NCBI GenBank assembly: GCA_020851235.1
Contig: JADZDD010000017.1
Span: forward strand, 1-64,000
Direction: 5' to 3'
Source of the DNA: Burkholderiales bacterium
Lineage (GTDB): Bacteria; Pseudomonadota; Gammaproteobacteria; Burkholderiales; Casimicrobiaceae
Length of the DNA: 64,000 nt
Shown: piece by piece, positions 46,677-51,313 of the stretch
Position numbering within the stretch: position 1 is the first letter of the stretch
Layout of the letters: each line of letters opens with the position of its first letter
The notes under the pieces: model-generated
Seen by the model: the letters and a program-made list of their open reading frames with translations, nothing else
Databases searched by the model: none
Told to the model about the DNA's origin: nothing
Position numbers and translations under genes: made by a program

Positions 46677-48500
46677 CTACGCGCCGCGTGCGGCAACGTC
46701 GAGCAGGAAGCGTTCGAGCGCGCGGACCGGAGCGAGGTCACGAAAGAGCACGTGCTTGCGCTGGGCGACACGGGCGGACGTTTGCATCCGATACGTCGCA
46801 TCGCGCGCGAGTCGCACCGCGAGGTCGACGTATTGCTCCGCCGAGGTGGCAACGAGTTCGTCCATGCCCATCACGCGCAGCACACCGCTCGCAAGTCGCC
46901 CGCGCATGAATCGCCCCTCCCACGCGACGACCGGCAGATCGCACTCGATCGCCTGCATCGCCGTGTTGAAGCCGGAGAAGCCGACGGTGTCGAGCAATGC
47001 GTCGCAGTCGCGCAGGATCGCAAAGAAGCGAGAGCGCGACTGGCGCGGCAGAAAGTGCAGGTTGCGGGCCGCGTCGAGCCCGGTATTCGAAAACGCGAGC
47101 GCCAGGCGCTCGTGGATCCGCTCGGACAAGGCCGGCGCCTGATCGACGAAGAAGAGGAGTTGCACGTCACGCGCGCGGCGTGCGATCTCCACCAGCAGGT
47201 GGTCGTGCTGCGGCATGTACTTGTACGGCGTGCCCGGACACACGAGCCGTGGCGCGAGCGCATCCACGCCAAGCGATGCCCAGTCGACACCGGTGAAATC
47301 CGGAACGAGGTCGTCGTAGTAGCACCCGATCCCGGGAAGACGCACCAGCCTCTCGCGATAGTGAGCTTGCGCGCCCGGTGGCTCGAACGCGTCCGCCGAG
47401 AGGAAGTAGTCGATCGTGGGATACCCGGAGGTTTCCGGATGCCCCCACGCCACGACTTGCACCGGCGCGAGGCGCAGTGCGGCCAGGCGCGCGCTCGTCG
47501 CGTCCATTCCGATCTCCGGATAGAGGATGACGTCGGGGTCGAGGGTTGCGAGCGCGGCGATCCAAGCGTCGAGGCCAGCAAGTCCCATGGTGAAGCTCGC
47601 TGCCTGCGCACGGGCAATCCCGGTTTCGGCATCGTTCGTCGTTCGCGTGTACAGGTAGTGGATCTCGATGCGGGAGCGGTCGAGGTGCGCGCACCAGCCG
47701 CGCAGGAGCGCGGTCCACACGGACTGGTCGTGCAAGAAGCCGCTGACGACGGCGAGGCGAACCGGACGCCCGGGGCTGCGTCGCGCTGCCGGCGGTGGCG
47801 CGTGCGCCGGGTGCGATGCGGCGAGCAAGCGCGCGCAAAGGTCGCCGTAGTCGCTCAAGAGCGCCCGATTGTCCTCTTCCATGAAGGCAAGGTAGAACGG
47901 GTGCCGCTCACCCACGGCCTCGGCGGCGAGGGGCGCGCGCGACGCATCGAACCACGCGTCGAGTGCGCGCAGGTCGGCCTCGAACTCGAGGCGAAACGTC
48001 GCCGGATCCTCGCCCGGCCCGTACGCCTGTGGCAATGCGGCGACGGCACGGAGCCAGCGCGCCTTCGCATGCTGCGGCTCGAGCGCCAGCACCTGCAACA
48101 GCGCGGCGCGTGCCTCCTCGCGCAACCCCTGCGCGTAATAGATCTCGCCTGCCGTGAAATGGACACCGGGATCTTGCGGGAAGCGCGCCTGCGCCTGCTG
48201 CAGGCGCTCGATCGCCTGCATTGATCGACCAAGCCGGGCTTCGATGTTGGCTGCGTTGAGATAGGCGGCAACGAACGAAGGATCGAGGTCGATGGCCCGA
48301 TCGAAACATGCCAACGACTCCGCTCCCTTTCCGGCCTGGCCGAGGGCGGCGGCAAGGTTGCCGTGCGCCGCCGCCGAGTCGCGGCGGCACTCGACCACAC
48401 GCGCAAATTCTGCTGCAGCGTCGCTGAACCGCCCTTGGCTAAAAAAGGCGAACCCGCGGCGCTCGTGCTCGCTTGCGGGATCCGACGCGGACGACTCCAT
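46677..48500 (-). CDS. TPR protein with GT41 (SPINDLY/O-GlcNAc transferase-like) domain
   Basis: A 607-residue protein. The N-terminal 160 residues hold about four TPR repeats (AAAHGNLAAALGQAGKGAES, PSFVAAYLNAANIEARLG). The C-terminal half has GT41 features: LAVVSGFLHDQSVW, VVAWGHPETSGYPTIDYFLS with EPPGAQAHYRERLVRLPG, and DTVGFSGFNTAMQAIECDLPVV. GT41 and HMW1C-like enzymes transfer sugars to protein Ser/Thr or Asn in the cytoplasm. The acceptor is unknown. The ATG at 48500 lies nine bases behind a duplicated radC stop codon, so the gene was probably once directly downstream of radC. Confidence 0.88.
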   Translation of the reverse strand: MESSASDPASEHERRGFAFFSQGRFSDAAAEFARVVECRRDSAAAHGNLAAALGQAGKGAESLACFDRAIDLDPSFVAAYLNAANIEARLGRSMQAIERLQQAQARFPQDPGVHFTAGEIYYAQGLREEARAALLQVLALEPQHAKARWLRAVAALPQAYGPGEDPATFRLEFEADLRALDAWFDASRAPLAAEAVGERHPFYLAFMEEDNRALLSDYGDLCARLLAASHPAHAPPPAARRSPGRPVRLAVVSGFLHDQSVWTALLRGWCAHLDRSRIEIHYLYTRTTNDAETGIARAQAASFTMGLAGLDAWIAALATLDPDVILYPEIGMDATSARLAALRLAPVQVVAWGHPETSGYPTIDYFLSADAFEPPGAQAHYRERLVRLPGIGCYYDDLVPDFTGVDWASLGVDALAPRLVCPGTPYKYMPQHDHLLVEIARRARDVQLLFFVDQAPALSERIHERLALAFSNTGLDAARNLHFLPRQSRSRFFAILRDCDALLDTVGFSGFNTAMQAIECDLPVVAWEGRFMRGRLASGVLRVMGMDELVATSAEQYVDLAVRLARDATYRMQTSARVAQRKHVLFRDLAPVRALERFLLDVAARGA

Positions 48501-48509
48501 GGCACGCAC

Positions 48510-48556
48510 TCAAAGCAAGCCTCGTTCCGCAAAGGATACGACGCGCTGGCCCGCAT
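48510..48556 (-). pseudogene. radC: Displaced 3' end of radC
   Basis: The minus strand encodes [14 protein letters not shown] and a TGA, identical to the last 14 residues of intact radC. The first 35 bases match radC exactly; the last codons (TTG CTT) differ only synonymously from those of intact radC (CTG TTG). There is no radC sequence upstream of this fragment. It marks the distal border of the inserted TA cassette. Confidence 0.88.
48520..48554 (-). repeat. 35-bp direct repeat, distal copy (putative att site)
   Basis: Identical over 35 bases to 49332-49366. Sequence on either side differs, except that the radC reading continues synonymously for three codons downstream. It is a candidate attachment-site core at the radC 3' end. 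Confidence 0.92.
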
Positions 48557-48632
48557 GGCGCGCGCCCTCAGGTGTTGAAAAGCAACTCACGCGATCGGCG
48601 CGGCGCAGTGTGGAATCTTCGTTGGTGCGGAC

Positions 48633-48995
48633 TCAAAGCGGCAGCACACGAACGCGTGTCCTCTCTGGTCCGACGACCACGAGTGCGCCGGACTCGAGCT
48701 CCGGCGTCAGTTGTCGCAATGTCTCAATTACATACTTGCCGAGCGACCTAATATGAACGGCGCCCGGGCGAACTTGGACGACGCTCGGCTTGTGTCCCTT
48801 CGTAACGGCAAGGATGGCGCCAAAGTCGAGGTCGAGTGTGAGCAATACATAGTCATGCTCCGCCGCATACGCCATGATGACGGCATCTTCCGCGTCGAGC
48901 CGTCCAACTGTCGACCAATGCGTTGCCTCAAGACCGCCGTCAGCCAATATCGCCACCCACTTGGTGGACAAATTGACGTCTACCAGAACCTTCAC
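48633..48995 (-). CDS. DUF5615 PIN-like toxin
   Basis: A 120-residue protein of the DUF5615 (Mut7-C/PIN-like) type: MKVLVDVNLSTKWVAILADG at the N terminus, a conserved Asp in RLDAEDAVIMAYA, and LTLDLDFGAILAV with two acidic residues, which fits a PIN-like nuclease. The GTG start overlaps the antitoxin stop (GTGA), so translation is coupled. Pairing with DUF433 is the usual arrangement for this family. The RNA target is unknown. Confidence 0.87.
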   Translation of the reverse strand: MKVLVDVNLSTKWVAILADGGLEATHWSTVGRLDAEDAVIMAYAAEHDYVLLTLDLDFGAILAVTKGHKPSVVQVRPGAVHIRSLGKYVIETLRQLTPELESGALVVVGPERTRVRVLPL

Positions 48996-49222
48996 GAATT
49001 GCCGAGAACCACTTCGCGTTCTTCCGCGCGCCATGCGGCGTAGCGTAGCGCTTGGATAATGTCCTCTCGATCCAGGTACGGAAAGTCGGTCAACAACTCT
49101 TCAATCGTCTGGCCAGCAGCGATCTGGCCGACGATCATCCCGACCGTCACCCGCATGCCACGAATGCATGGCTTGCCGCCCATAACGGCCGGGTTCTGCG
49201 TGATTCGATCGAACAGGTCCAT
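48992..49222 (-). CDS. DUF433 antitoxin
   Basis: A 76-residue DUF433 protein: MDLFDRITQNPAVMGGKPCI, then RGMRVTVGMIVGQIAAGQTIEELL and FPYLDREDIIQALRYAAW. These small helix-turn-helix-like proteins act as antitoxins for DUF5615 partners. The start at 49222 gives the typical family N terminus; an upstream ATG at 49255 would add 11 residues. It overlaps the toxin gene by four bases. Confidence 0.87.
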   Translation of the reverse strand: MDLFDRITQNPAVMGGKPCIRGMRVTVGMIVGQIAAGQTIEELLTDFPYLDREDIIQALRYAAWRAEEREVVLGNS

Positions 49223-49273
49223 AAGCCGGTTGCCGCGGTTGGCTTGAACATTCAACCTGATGGGTACCTGACC

Positions 49274-49286
49274 TCATGATACATGA
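49274..49286. promoter_or_regulatory. Candidate operator in front of the DUF433 gene
   Basis: TCATG-ATA-CATGA is a perfect inverted repeat of two five-base arms, about 52 bases before the antitoxin start. It is placed as expected for autoregulation by the antitoxin complex. Confidence 0.4.
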
Positions 49287-49321
49287 ACGTCCACGCGCGA
49301 TGACCGCGAGACCCTTCGCGG

Positions 49322-50014
49322 TCACAACAGCCCTCGTTCCGCAAAGGATACGACGCGCTGGCCCGCCACCACGAAGTGATCGAGCGTGCGGATGTCGACG
49401 AGCGCGAGCGCGCTCTTGAGTGACGACGTCAGGAGCTCGTCGGCGCGCGAAGGCTCGGCGACGCCACTCGGATGGTTGTGCGCGAAGATGACCGCCGCAG
49501 CGTTCTCGGCGAGCGCCGCCTTCACCACCTCGCGCGGATAGACCGACGTCTGCGCGAGCGTGCCGCGAAAGAGCTCGCGCGCGGCGAGAAGCCGGTTCTG
49601 GCTGTCGAGGAAGAGCGCGAGGAACGCCTCGTGCGGGAGCGTGGACAGCGACAGGCGCAAGTAGTCGCGCACGGCTTCGGGTGAGGTGAGCACGTCGCGT
49701 TGCGCCGCCTCCTCGAGCAGGGCGCGCCGTACGAGTTCGAGCGTGGCCACGAGCCGCGCGGCGCGCACGGGGCCGAACCCGCGCAGGTGCCGTAATTCGG
49801 CAGCTCCTGACGCGAGGAGCCCGGCGGTGCTGCCTGCCCGCGCCAGTGCGCGGCGGGCAAGTTCGAGCGCCGAGCACCCCGAAAAGCCCGTTCCCAGCAT
49901 CACCGCCAGAAGCTCGGCGTCGGTGAGGGCGCCCGGTCCGCGCGCGAGGAGCCGTTCGCGCGGGCGCTCGGCGTCGGTGGTGACGGGGTCAGAGGAGTTC
50001 CAGGTCGGCGTCAT
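49322..50014 (-). CDS. radC: RadC/JAB-domain protein
   Basis: A 230-residue RadC family protein. The N terminus holds helix-hairpin-helix elements ([29 protein letters not shown]); the C terminus has the JAMM metalloprotease-like site [15 protein letters not shown]. The true role of RadC is unsettled; it is often linked to DNA repair or to mobile elements. The start at 50014 begins [14 protein letters not shown]. The last 12 codons lie in the 35-bp repeat, so its present 3' end may be element-borne. TA modules lie on both sides. Confidence 0.92.
49332..49366 (-). repeat. 35-bp direct repeat, proximal copy inside radC
   Basis: Identical to 48520-48554 and coding for the radC C terminus ([12 protein letters not shown]). 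It forms the other border of the TA cassette. Confidence 0.92.
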
Positions 50015-50288: not shown

Positions 50289-50819
50289 ATGTCGACTCGC
50301 ACCGACACCGCAACGCGCCGACGCACACCACGAGCCAAGGGGGCAACCGGCAAGACCGGGCGCACCGTCACTTGGCCAGTGAAGGCTTCGGCCGACTGGT
50401 TCGTCCGGGTGTTCTCCATGCCTGCCACCGAGCGGGTGCAGGTCGCCAAGCGCGGCGTGCCGGCAGTGTCCATCGCCGATCTCGCCAAGGCGACCGGCGA
50501 GCCCAAGGAACATGTGATGGCGTTGCTCGGCCTTTCGCGCGCCACGGTCGACCGGAAGGCTCGGGCCAACCAGGCGTTGTCCGTGGTGGAGAGCGAACGC
50601 GTGATGGGGTTCGCCAAGCTGGTCGGCCAGGTGCAGGCGATGGTGAACGAGTCGGGAGACCCCGCCGGGTTCGACGCCGCCAGGTGGGTTGCCGGATGGC
50701 TGGAGCGGCCCCTGCCCGCGCTCGGCGGACAGCCGCCAGGTGAGTACATGGACACCGCCGAAGGTCAGCAGATCGTGTCCGGGCTGCTTGAACGAGCGCG
50801 CAGCGGCACCTTCGCATGA
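50289..50819 (+). CDS. Xre/MbcA/ParS-family antitoxin
   Basis: A 176-residue antitoxin. A basic N-terminal tail of about 30 residues precedes the Xre-like DNA-binding part (SIADLAKATGEPKEHVMALLGLSRATVDRKA). The C-terminal toxin-binding domain (DUF2384) reads WLERPLPALGGQPPGEYM, then GQQIVSGLLERARSGTFA. GGAG lies seven bases before the ATG. Its stop overlaps the toxin start (ATGA). Confidence 0.92.
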   Translation: MSTRTDTATRRRTPRAKGATGKTGRTVTWPVKASADWFVRVFSMPATERVQVAKRGVPAVSIADLAKATGEPKEHVMALLGLSRATVDRKARANQALSVVESERVMGFAKLVGQVQAMVNESGDPAGFDAARWVAGWLERPLPALGGQPPGEYMDTAEGQQIVSGLLERARSGTFA

Positions 50820-51313
50820 GCGTCGTATGGCGCATCGGGACGGACACGCCCACGTATCGCGCCGATGATCTCAGCGGCGCGGGTGCGCAGCGCACGGGGG
50901 GGCGCTGGAACCGGAAGGGAACCCCGATGCTCTATGCGGCGTCGAGCCGCGCGTTGGCCTGTCTCGAGACGATCGTGCACTTCAACGCAGGCGATCTACC
51001 GCTCAACCGATACCTCGTCGAGTTGGCGATCCCCGATGAGCTTGTCGCGGCGGCGGTTCGGTTCGATCCACACGCCCATGTTGGCTGGGACGCCATTCCT
51101 GAAGGAATGGTGAGCGTGGCCGCGGGCGAAGCCTGGGTGCGAAGCGGCACCTCGGCGGTGATGGTCGTACCCTCGGTGATCGTGCCGGAGGAGATGAACT
51201 TTCTCATCAGCCCCGAACACGCGGACGCCCAGCGGATCACGGCCCGCAAGGTGCGCAAGTGGATTTACGACGCGCGGCTACGCGCAGTCGGGTCACCACG
51301 GCGCAAGAGGTGA
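50816..51313 (+). CDS. RES-domain toxin
   Basis: A 165-residue RES protein. The Arg-Glu-Ser residues that name the family lie in GGRWNRKGTPMLYA, CLETIVH and VPSVIVP. RES toxins studied elsewhere degrade NAD+ and arrest growth, and are held in check by the Xre/ParS partner, encoded here directly upstream with an ATGA overlap. The pair sits between radC and coaBC. Confidence 0.93.
   Translation: MSVVWRIGTDTPTYRADDLSGAGAQRTGGRWNRKGTPMLYAASSRALACLETIVHFNAGDLPLNRYLVELAIPDELVAAAVRFDPHAHVGWDAIPEGMVSVAAGEAWVRSGTSAVMVVPSVIVPEEMNFLISPEHADAQRITARKVRKWIYDARLRAVGSPRRKR

Follow-up and report, generated by a model that had tools for sequence, protein, structure and literature searches.

How small chromosomal toxin-antitoxin (TA) modules travel without transposases is poorly understood. 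The locus described here raises this question at a single place: in a Burkholderiales bacterium of the family Casimicrobiaceae (assembly GCA_020851235.1), a TA module lies between the gene radC and a second copy of the radC 3' end. If the module arrived with both scars and a replacement gene end, as we propose below, the crossover is placed within a few dozen bases and the question becomes testable at one locus. The stretch analysed, referred to as the window, consists of the first 64,000 nucleotides of contig JADZDD010000017.1, and all coordinates are those of the window.

Two copies of the radC 3' end

The features at the end of radC are listed here; G008 is the genome with the nearest RadC and G003 a further relative.

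49322..50014, minus strand: intact radC, with UPF0758 N-terminal (UPF0758_N) and RadC JAB domains according to Pfam; product 80% identical to RadC of G008
49332..49366, minus strand: first copy of a 35-bp repeat, an att-like core inside intact radC (repeat search)
49322..49331, minus strand: last 10 bp of intact radC, probably from incoming DNA (6/10 identical to the displaced end, 6/10 to the G008 end)
48520..48554, minus strand: second copy of the 35-bp repeat, displaced radC 3' end (repeat search)
48510..48519, minus strand: final 10 bp of the displaced radC end, probably native (9/10 identical to the G008 end)
46677..48509, minus strand: TPR/GT41 glycosyltransferase-like gene directly after the displaced end (Pfam; ortholog beside dut in G003)

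The bases at 49332-49366 recur without a mismatch (35/35) at 48520-48554, 812 bp apart from start to start, as a preliminary description of this DNA had noticed. Both copies continue in frame to the residues G-L-L and a stop codon, and the synonymous last codons that were reported for them are indeed present: the intact gene reads GGG CTG TTG TGA and the displaced end GGC TTG CTT TGA. Outside the 35-bp core the homology is confined to the last 10 bp (49322-49331 versus 48510-48519), 6 of which are identical. The four differences are silent and all fall into these last 10 of 45 bp. For four changes placed at random the probability of such a distribution is C(10,4)/C(45,4) = 0.0014; identity thus gives way to difference at a real boundary. 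The stop codon of the displaced end (TGA, 48510-48512) directly abuts the GTG start codon (48507-48509) of the GT41/TPR gene.

The repeat had an ungapped match score of 35; 15 shuffled versions of the downstream DNA gave no score above 12. The search for direct repeats (at least 20 nt, 16-nt exact seed, within 5 kb) yielded five families in the whole window: three longer stretches at 71-81% identity, one of 20 nt at 95%, and the radC-end repeat, the sole family with a 35-bp exact run. A third, dispersed copy, which the preliminary description had considered, did not turn up: with up to three mismatches allowed, the draft genome to which the window belongs (3.93 Mb, 41 contigs, 98.84% complete) contains only these two. 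The repeat at the radC locus is a real insertion scar.

The cassette between the repeats

The stretch between the two copies, from here on called the cassette, comprises 777 bp (48555-49331). Its parts are:

48992..49255, minus strand: DUF433 gene, probable antitoxin (Pfam PF04255, 4e-24; PDB 2ga1 by sequence, 1.2e-4)
48633..48995, minus strand: DUF5615 gene, probable toxin (Pfam PF18480, 5.2e-21, scored on a longer frame from 49034)
49256..49300, minus strand: leader 5' of the DUF433 gene (sequence)
48555..48632, no strand: far end of the cassette, from the DUF5615 stop to the displaced radC end (sequence)
49301..49324, no strand: hairpin with a perfect 9-bp stem, overlapping the stop codon of intact radC (hairpin search)

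With a GC content of 0.587 versus 0.681 for the window, the cassette lies below each of 1,265 windows of equal length (step 50 bp). The insert had been described as less GC-rich, and it has in fact the lowest GC content of the window; a foreign composition is thereby supported. That it carries only DUF433 and DUF5615 as genes and no integrase was confirmed with Pfam, in which eight other overlapping ORFs match no family and no recombinase family was found among the cassette ORFs. A transposase family was equally absent from these ORFs in Pfam, and none of the 15 inverted-repeat pairs found links the two ends of the cassette as terminal inverted repeats would. Both results speak against a module borne by a transposon or IS. 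The hairpin at 49301-49324, which the search for terminator-like sites did not pick up, could be a terminator without a T-run, a protein site or part of an element end.

The DUF5615 gene is likely to start with a GTG that overlaps the stop codon of the DUF433 gene as GTGA (48992-48995), which gives 120 codons. From this start the protein aligns with its homologs from the first residue (33-58% identity). D6, D37, D55 and D57 are invariant in 13 DUF5615 sequences, and four invariant aspartates would be expected for the site of a metal-dependent nuclease. The AlphaFold2 model of the protein is confident, with a pLDDT of 89.8. A Foldseek search with this model gave no PDB match at E <= 0.001; no PIN protein was named among the 50 matches listed, and three of the first seven were unnamed chains of pre-ribosome entries. 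DUF5615 may be a PIN-like family; the basis of this putative relationship is a name in a plasmid record together with family knowledge. Neither the DUF433 nor the DUF5615 protein had a match in NCBIfam.

The pair has both families, the gene order and the overlap of stop and start in common with DUF433/DUF5615 (COG2442/COG4634) type II TA modules, and its sequence suggests a TA function. In PMC5649159, COG2442 is described as a PIN-associated antitoxin, and a hypothesis is cited there according to which COG4634 modulates conjugative plasmid transfer. In the literature searched, DUF433 and DUF5615 were not found named together; both COG numbers do co-occur in one paper.

Unlike the module in the window, those at 17 other DUF5615 loci (16 with a DUF433 match, the exception being L108) showed no bounding duplicated gene ends within 700 bp on each side where available, L102 having almost no downstream sequence. 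On the strength of these 17 loci, we rejected bounding duplicated gene ends as a general feature of DUF433/DUF5615 pairs. The strongest flank repeat among them, at L105 (72 bp, about 70%), scored 18 as against 13 in shuffles, and the others scored at most 12. At a second DUF433 gene of the window genome (L074) the same scan gave no flank-repeat match. The similar stretches at L105 (genome G087) are located at -628 and +626 of the pair and probably belong to neighbouring paralogous genes.

The locus in relatives and the native radC end

RadC matches were found in 48 of the 61 genomes searched. In G008, the nearest relative having radC, the order is desaturase, rpmB, dut, radC, coaBC, with only about 80 bp between radC and coaBC; from dut to coaBC there is neither a GT41 gene nor a DUF pair nor an Xre/RES pair. 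The cassette is therefore absent from radC of G008; a DUF433/DUF5615-like pair is present on another contig of that genome. The body of radC in the window appears to have been inherited vertically, given identities of 80-83% to the G008 counterparts for RadC, CoaBC, dut and desaturase alike.

By rpmB (97%) and desaturase (88%) G003 is a closer relative, in whose draft radC and coaBC were not found. It has a GT41 ortholog (78% identical) next to dut, and GT41 is thus old at this locus. In G003 a ParE-like toxin frame (PF05016, 24.0 bits against a cut-off of 23) stops 23 bp upstream of the GT41 start, followed by the contig end; this frame end (L072, 9813-9948) sits where the window has the displaced radC end. 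Between rpmB and dut the same contig of G003 carries a small accessory gene of the Uma2 family (PF05685; L072, 6661-7227). Among 22 genomes of the genus to which the window genome belongs, CoaBC was not found in 13 (E <= 1e-50) and RadC not in 10 (E <= 0.001), nine of them common to both; these are probably draft gaps, as several contigs break near coaBC. In G007 (L031, 4063-5716) two pieces of radC with a hydrolase-like gene between them lie downstream of broken frames that, judged by eye, resemble a P4-type integrase.

An empty junction, with radC directly before GT41 and no cassette, had been named in the preliminary description as the arrangement to look for; it was not found in 63 other genomes of the family, with five candidates scored in each.

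It had been left to a comparison of the 3' ends which of the two resembles inherited radC. The G008 end, ATTGCTTTGA, agrees with the displaced end at 9/10 positions and with the intact end at 6/10; the displaced, probably native form is CTTGCTTTGA and the intact-type form GCTGTTGTGA. In a set of 237 loci, some of them without radC, the pattern GCNGARCGNGGNTTGCTTTGA was confined to those of the window genome and of G008, and the same holds for the pattern with TTGCTTTGA. Apart from loci of the window genome, the pattern with GGGCTGTTGTGA was seen in just one Thauera locus (L176). The better match of the G008 end to the displaced end, together with the direct contact between the displaced stop and the first codon of GT41, makes it probable that the displaced copy is native and formerly led into GT41 with no gap; the last 10 bp of intact radC accordingly look incoming. 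However, this evidence spans about 10 bp of the displaced end, and three further radC ends are as good a match to it as that of G008, so that 4 of 108 distinct ends, the gene of the window being one of the 108, reach 9/10. Altogether 40 of these ends are closer to the displaced end, 41 (own gene included) to the intact end, and 27 tie.

Search for a recombinase, a partner and a second case

In the 1.5-kb flanks, where available, of eight integrase matches in the window genome no clear core-like sequence was found; the highest core-like score, 11, exceeded the five shuffles made for that entry by no more than 2-3. On the evidence of these eight flanks a resident integrase was rejected as the driver. 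A recombinase with the same att core, as envisaged in the preliminary description, was thus not found near these eight matches, and there is no third copy of the core. A phmmer scan with four integrase-like frames chosen by motif returned one ORF outside the integrase loci of the window genome (L135, about 3 kb downstream of radC); the scan was crude and too insensitive to exclude other integrases.

There were no phage matches at all and no plasmid matches over the repeats. A radC-end pattern was found on 35 viral contigs, the intact-end pattern on none, and one of the contigs, L206, holds only the last 36 codons. This orphan radC 3' end (IMG/VR 3300042006_000321, 2139-2246) is placed between two gene groups of a mobile element and looks like the remains of the element's own radC with cargo inserted into it. 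The L206 end does not match that of the cassette. Orphan radC ends on mobile elements were considered as an explanation and rejected.

The radC ends of 29 relatives, searched over at most 1,500 bp downstream, did not show the same duplication (the second-highest score was 13, versus 11-12 in shuffles). Neither did 79 out of 80 named loci, where the search covered as much as 2,500 bp if available; the remaining locus, L182, has 82 bp. The two sets overlap in at least L112 and L147. The radC end as a common duplicated site found no support. Relatives with both radC ends but no TA module, which according to the preliminary description would refute integration, did not turn up: the 29 relatives and 79 named loci have one radC end each, in a comparison whose nearest RadC is only 80% identical.

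Origin of the scar

By analogy, the geometry of the locus is that of a gene-3'-end integrant of the e14/icd type. The best single explanation, only partly supported, is that we see the remnant of a site-specific integration at the 3' end of radC, by which a TA-bearing piece of about 0.8 kb was inserted with a recombinase that acted in trans or has been lost; to us the case for it is evenly poised. Low-GC DNA of this size with DUF433/DUF5615 would have integrated at the end of radC, bringing along a core that matched radC of this species and a different radC end. A crossover in the 35-bp core or at its edge would have left one core copy at each end of the insert (attL-like and attR-like). The incoming radC end would have restored the reading frame with synonymous last codons, and the native last codons, which formerly ran into GT41, would have been displaced 812 bp downstream as non-coding scrap. 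The recombinase would have been supplied in trans or lost since, and the TA module would then have been retained through its own addictive effect.

The preliminary description had come to the same reading of integration at a gene 3' end, and it holds in part: the foreign composition, the duplicated end and the likeness of the displaced end to that of G008 speak for it, but a recombinase, an att partner, an empty junction and a second case were not found. A restored G-L-L-stop frame would hardly be expected of a random junction. We only infer the involvement of a recombinase, and with it the term site-specific, because neither an empty junction nor a core partner, a phage match or a plasmid match over the repeats was found. 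A scar much like this one would also result if foreign DNA were inserted in a RecA-dependent or illegitimate manner.

The same outcome without a site-specific enzyme could have come from a fragment of a relative that already had a TA module after radC, on its chromosome or on a mobile element. One end would have entered by homology of radC and the other illegitimately inside the recipient radC end, whose last 45 bp were left behind; homology-facilitated illegitimate recombination and exchange as at a minimal mobile element are the labels for such a route, which we regard as possible, though rather unlikely. It would agree with the absence of a recombinase and of a second att case, with the MazE/PIN modules that follow radC in the relatives G025 and G006, and with the ParE-like end that G003 has on the corresponding side of GT41, a pattern fitting an exchange spot. 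Moreover, mobile elements often carry a radC of their own, as is reported in PMC12595487, PMC3864950, PMC3401170 and PMC2789088, and such elements could be donors of foreign radC-TA DNA. Yet the core is identical at 35/35, where G008 differs at 5/35, and the next 10 bp differ at 4; as radC from another species should differ in the core too, an ordinary foreign donor is disfavoured. Nor was a donor with a DUF433/DUF5615 module after radC found.

The polarity could also be the reverse, with the intact end native and the displaced end having arrived together with GT41 from elsewhere. The absence of GT41 from the G008 locus and the equal frequency of both end forms would fit, but the closer relative G003 already has GT41 beside dut, the GC content of GT41 is ordinary (0.68) and the G008 end matches the displaced one, which makes this course improbable. 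For a recent local copy of the radC end, made by template switching, an identical core would be expected. However, the TA module would have had to come separately, which requires two events, and four synonymous differences in 10 bp with none in 35 do not fit a later drift of the last codons (the placement probability given above); we consider such a duplication very unlikely. The chance of a dispersed repeat or an assembly artefact appears negligible: the genome is a draft of 41 contigs and the repeat is known from the assembly alone, but there are only two copies and none elsewhere with up to three mismatches, the locus lies inside a 193-kb contig, and the two copies have different ends.

Comparison with known systems

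The element e14 of Escherichia coli is a prophage with recombination genes of its own. According to PMC6379469, its insertion in icd separates a 163-bp 3' region, which is left as a duplicated pseudo-icd, and the element provides the 3' terminal codon. Integration inside the 3' end of a gene, a terminal codon supplied by the element and an original end that persists as duplicated scrap thus appear to be common to both cases, whereas 163 bp of icd are displaced there as opposed to 45 bp of radC here, with a 777-bp cassette and no recombinase. A parallel for radC itself is known from Mesorhizobium, an alphaproteobacterium. There, radC is described as an att gene of ICEs and IMEs (PMC8627217). 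The likeness is at the level of the gene, and the IMEs described there differ from the cassette in that they have at least 5.8 kb and mobility genes.

Remnant SCC elements sit at the 3' end of rlmH/orfX in staphylococci. Like the cassette they are short cargo at a gene 3' end and may be without a recombinase; serine recombinases, known att sequences and tandem copies are features of SCC that set it apart. In the minimal mobile elements of Neisseria, alternative small gene cassettes occupy one place between conserved genes. The different TA modules beside radC in the present family may resemble such alternative cassettes, yet a duplicated gene end is not what exchange through flanking homology would leave.

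Gene-3'-end integration is thus an already known kind of event, and the present cassette, with no more than one TA module and a replacement gene end, represents a variant of it. Judged from titles and abstract openings, no TA cassette with a duplicated host gene end was recognised in the literature searched. The locus adds an example of radC as a landing place, with a TA module alone as the cargo, and its footprint hints at how solitary TA pairs could move between genomes.

TA modules beside radC elsewhere

A second TA module is found on the other side of radC:

50289..51313, plus strand: Xre/MbcA/ParS antitoxin and RES toxin genes between radC and coaBC (Pfam)

In the window, radC is hence flanked by TA modules on both sides, DUF433/DUF5615 downstream and Xre/RES upstream. 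Within the family, a TA module was found beside radC in 4 of 18 loci, namely those of the window genome, of G025 (MazE/PIN downstream), of G006 (MazE/PIN downstream, in the opposite orientation) and of G018 (PIN upstream). The set of 18 leaves out the short accessory-type radC loci L033, L036 and L037. For the relatives 28 of 70 gap ORFs were searched with Pfam, in addition to the ORFs of the window and one frame of G006, with distance limits that differ between the sets; the count is a lead and not a test. The sides and orientations of the modules differ among these four genomes and G003, where the module end lies beside GT41. No direct repeats of at least 16 nt (14-nt seed) were found around the modules of G025, G006 and G018.

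For TA modules within the family, radC may serve as a local landing place, and among the landings found here that of the window alone still has a legible scar. For a wider range of radC loci a TA hotspot at the flanks was unsupported: 54 small flank ORFs at 38 named loci, one of which (L112) belongs to the family, yielded no TA family. These ORFs gave one HVO_A0114 match and 17 control ORFs gave none. A far-reaching generalisation would be that solitary chromosomal TA modules move as minimal integrants, consisting of a TA operon, a 3'-end core and a replacement end, which a recombinase acting in trans inserts at radC and other conserved genes; where related species have TA modules of other families next to radC, these would then be older landings whose scraps have decayed. 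We think it doubtful that this holds.

Two PIN loci of the window genome, L235 and L236, contain repeats, none of them around the PIN gene. At L235 (contig C40 of the window genome, 2414-3259) a 74-nt direct repeat of 76% identity, with the copies 772 bp apart, lies downstream of the PIN gene.
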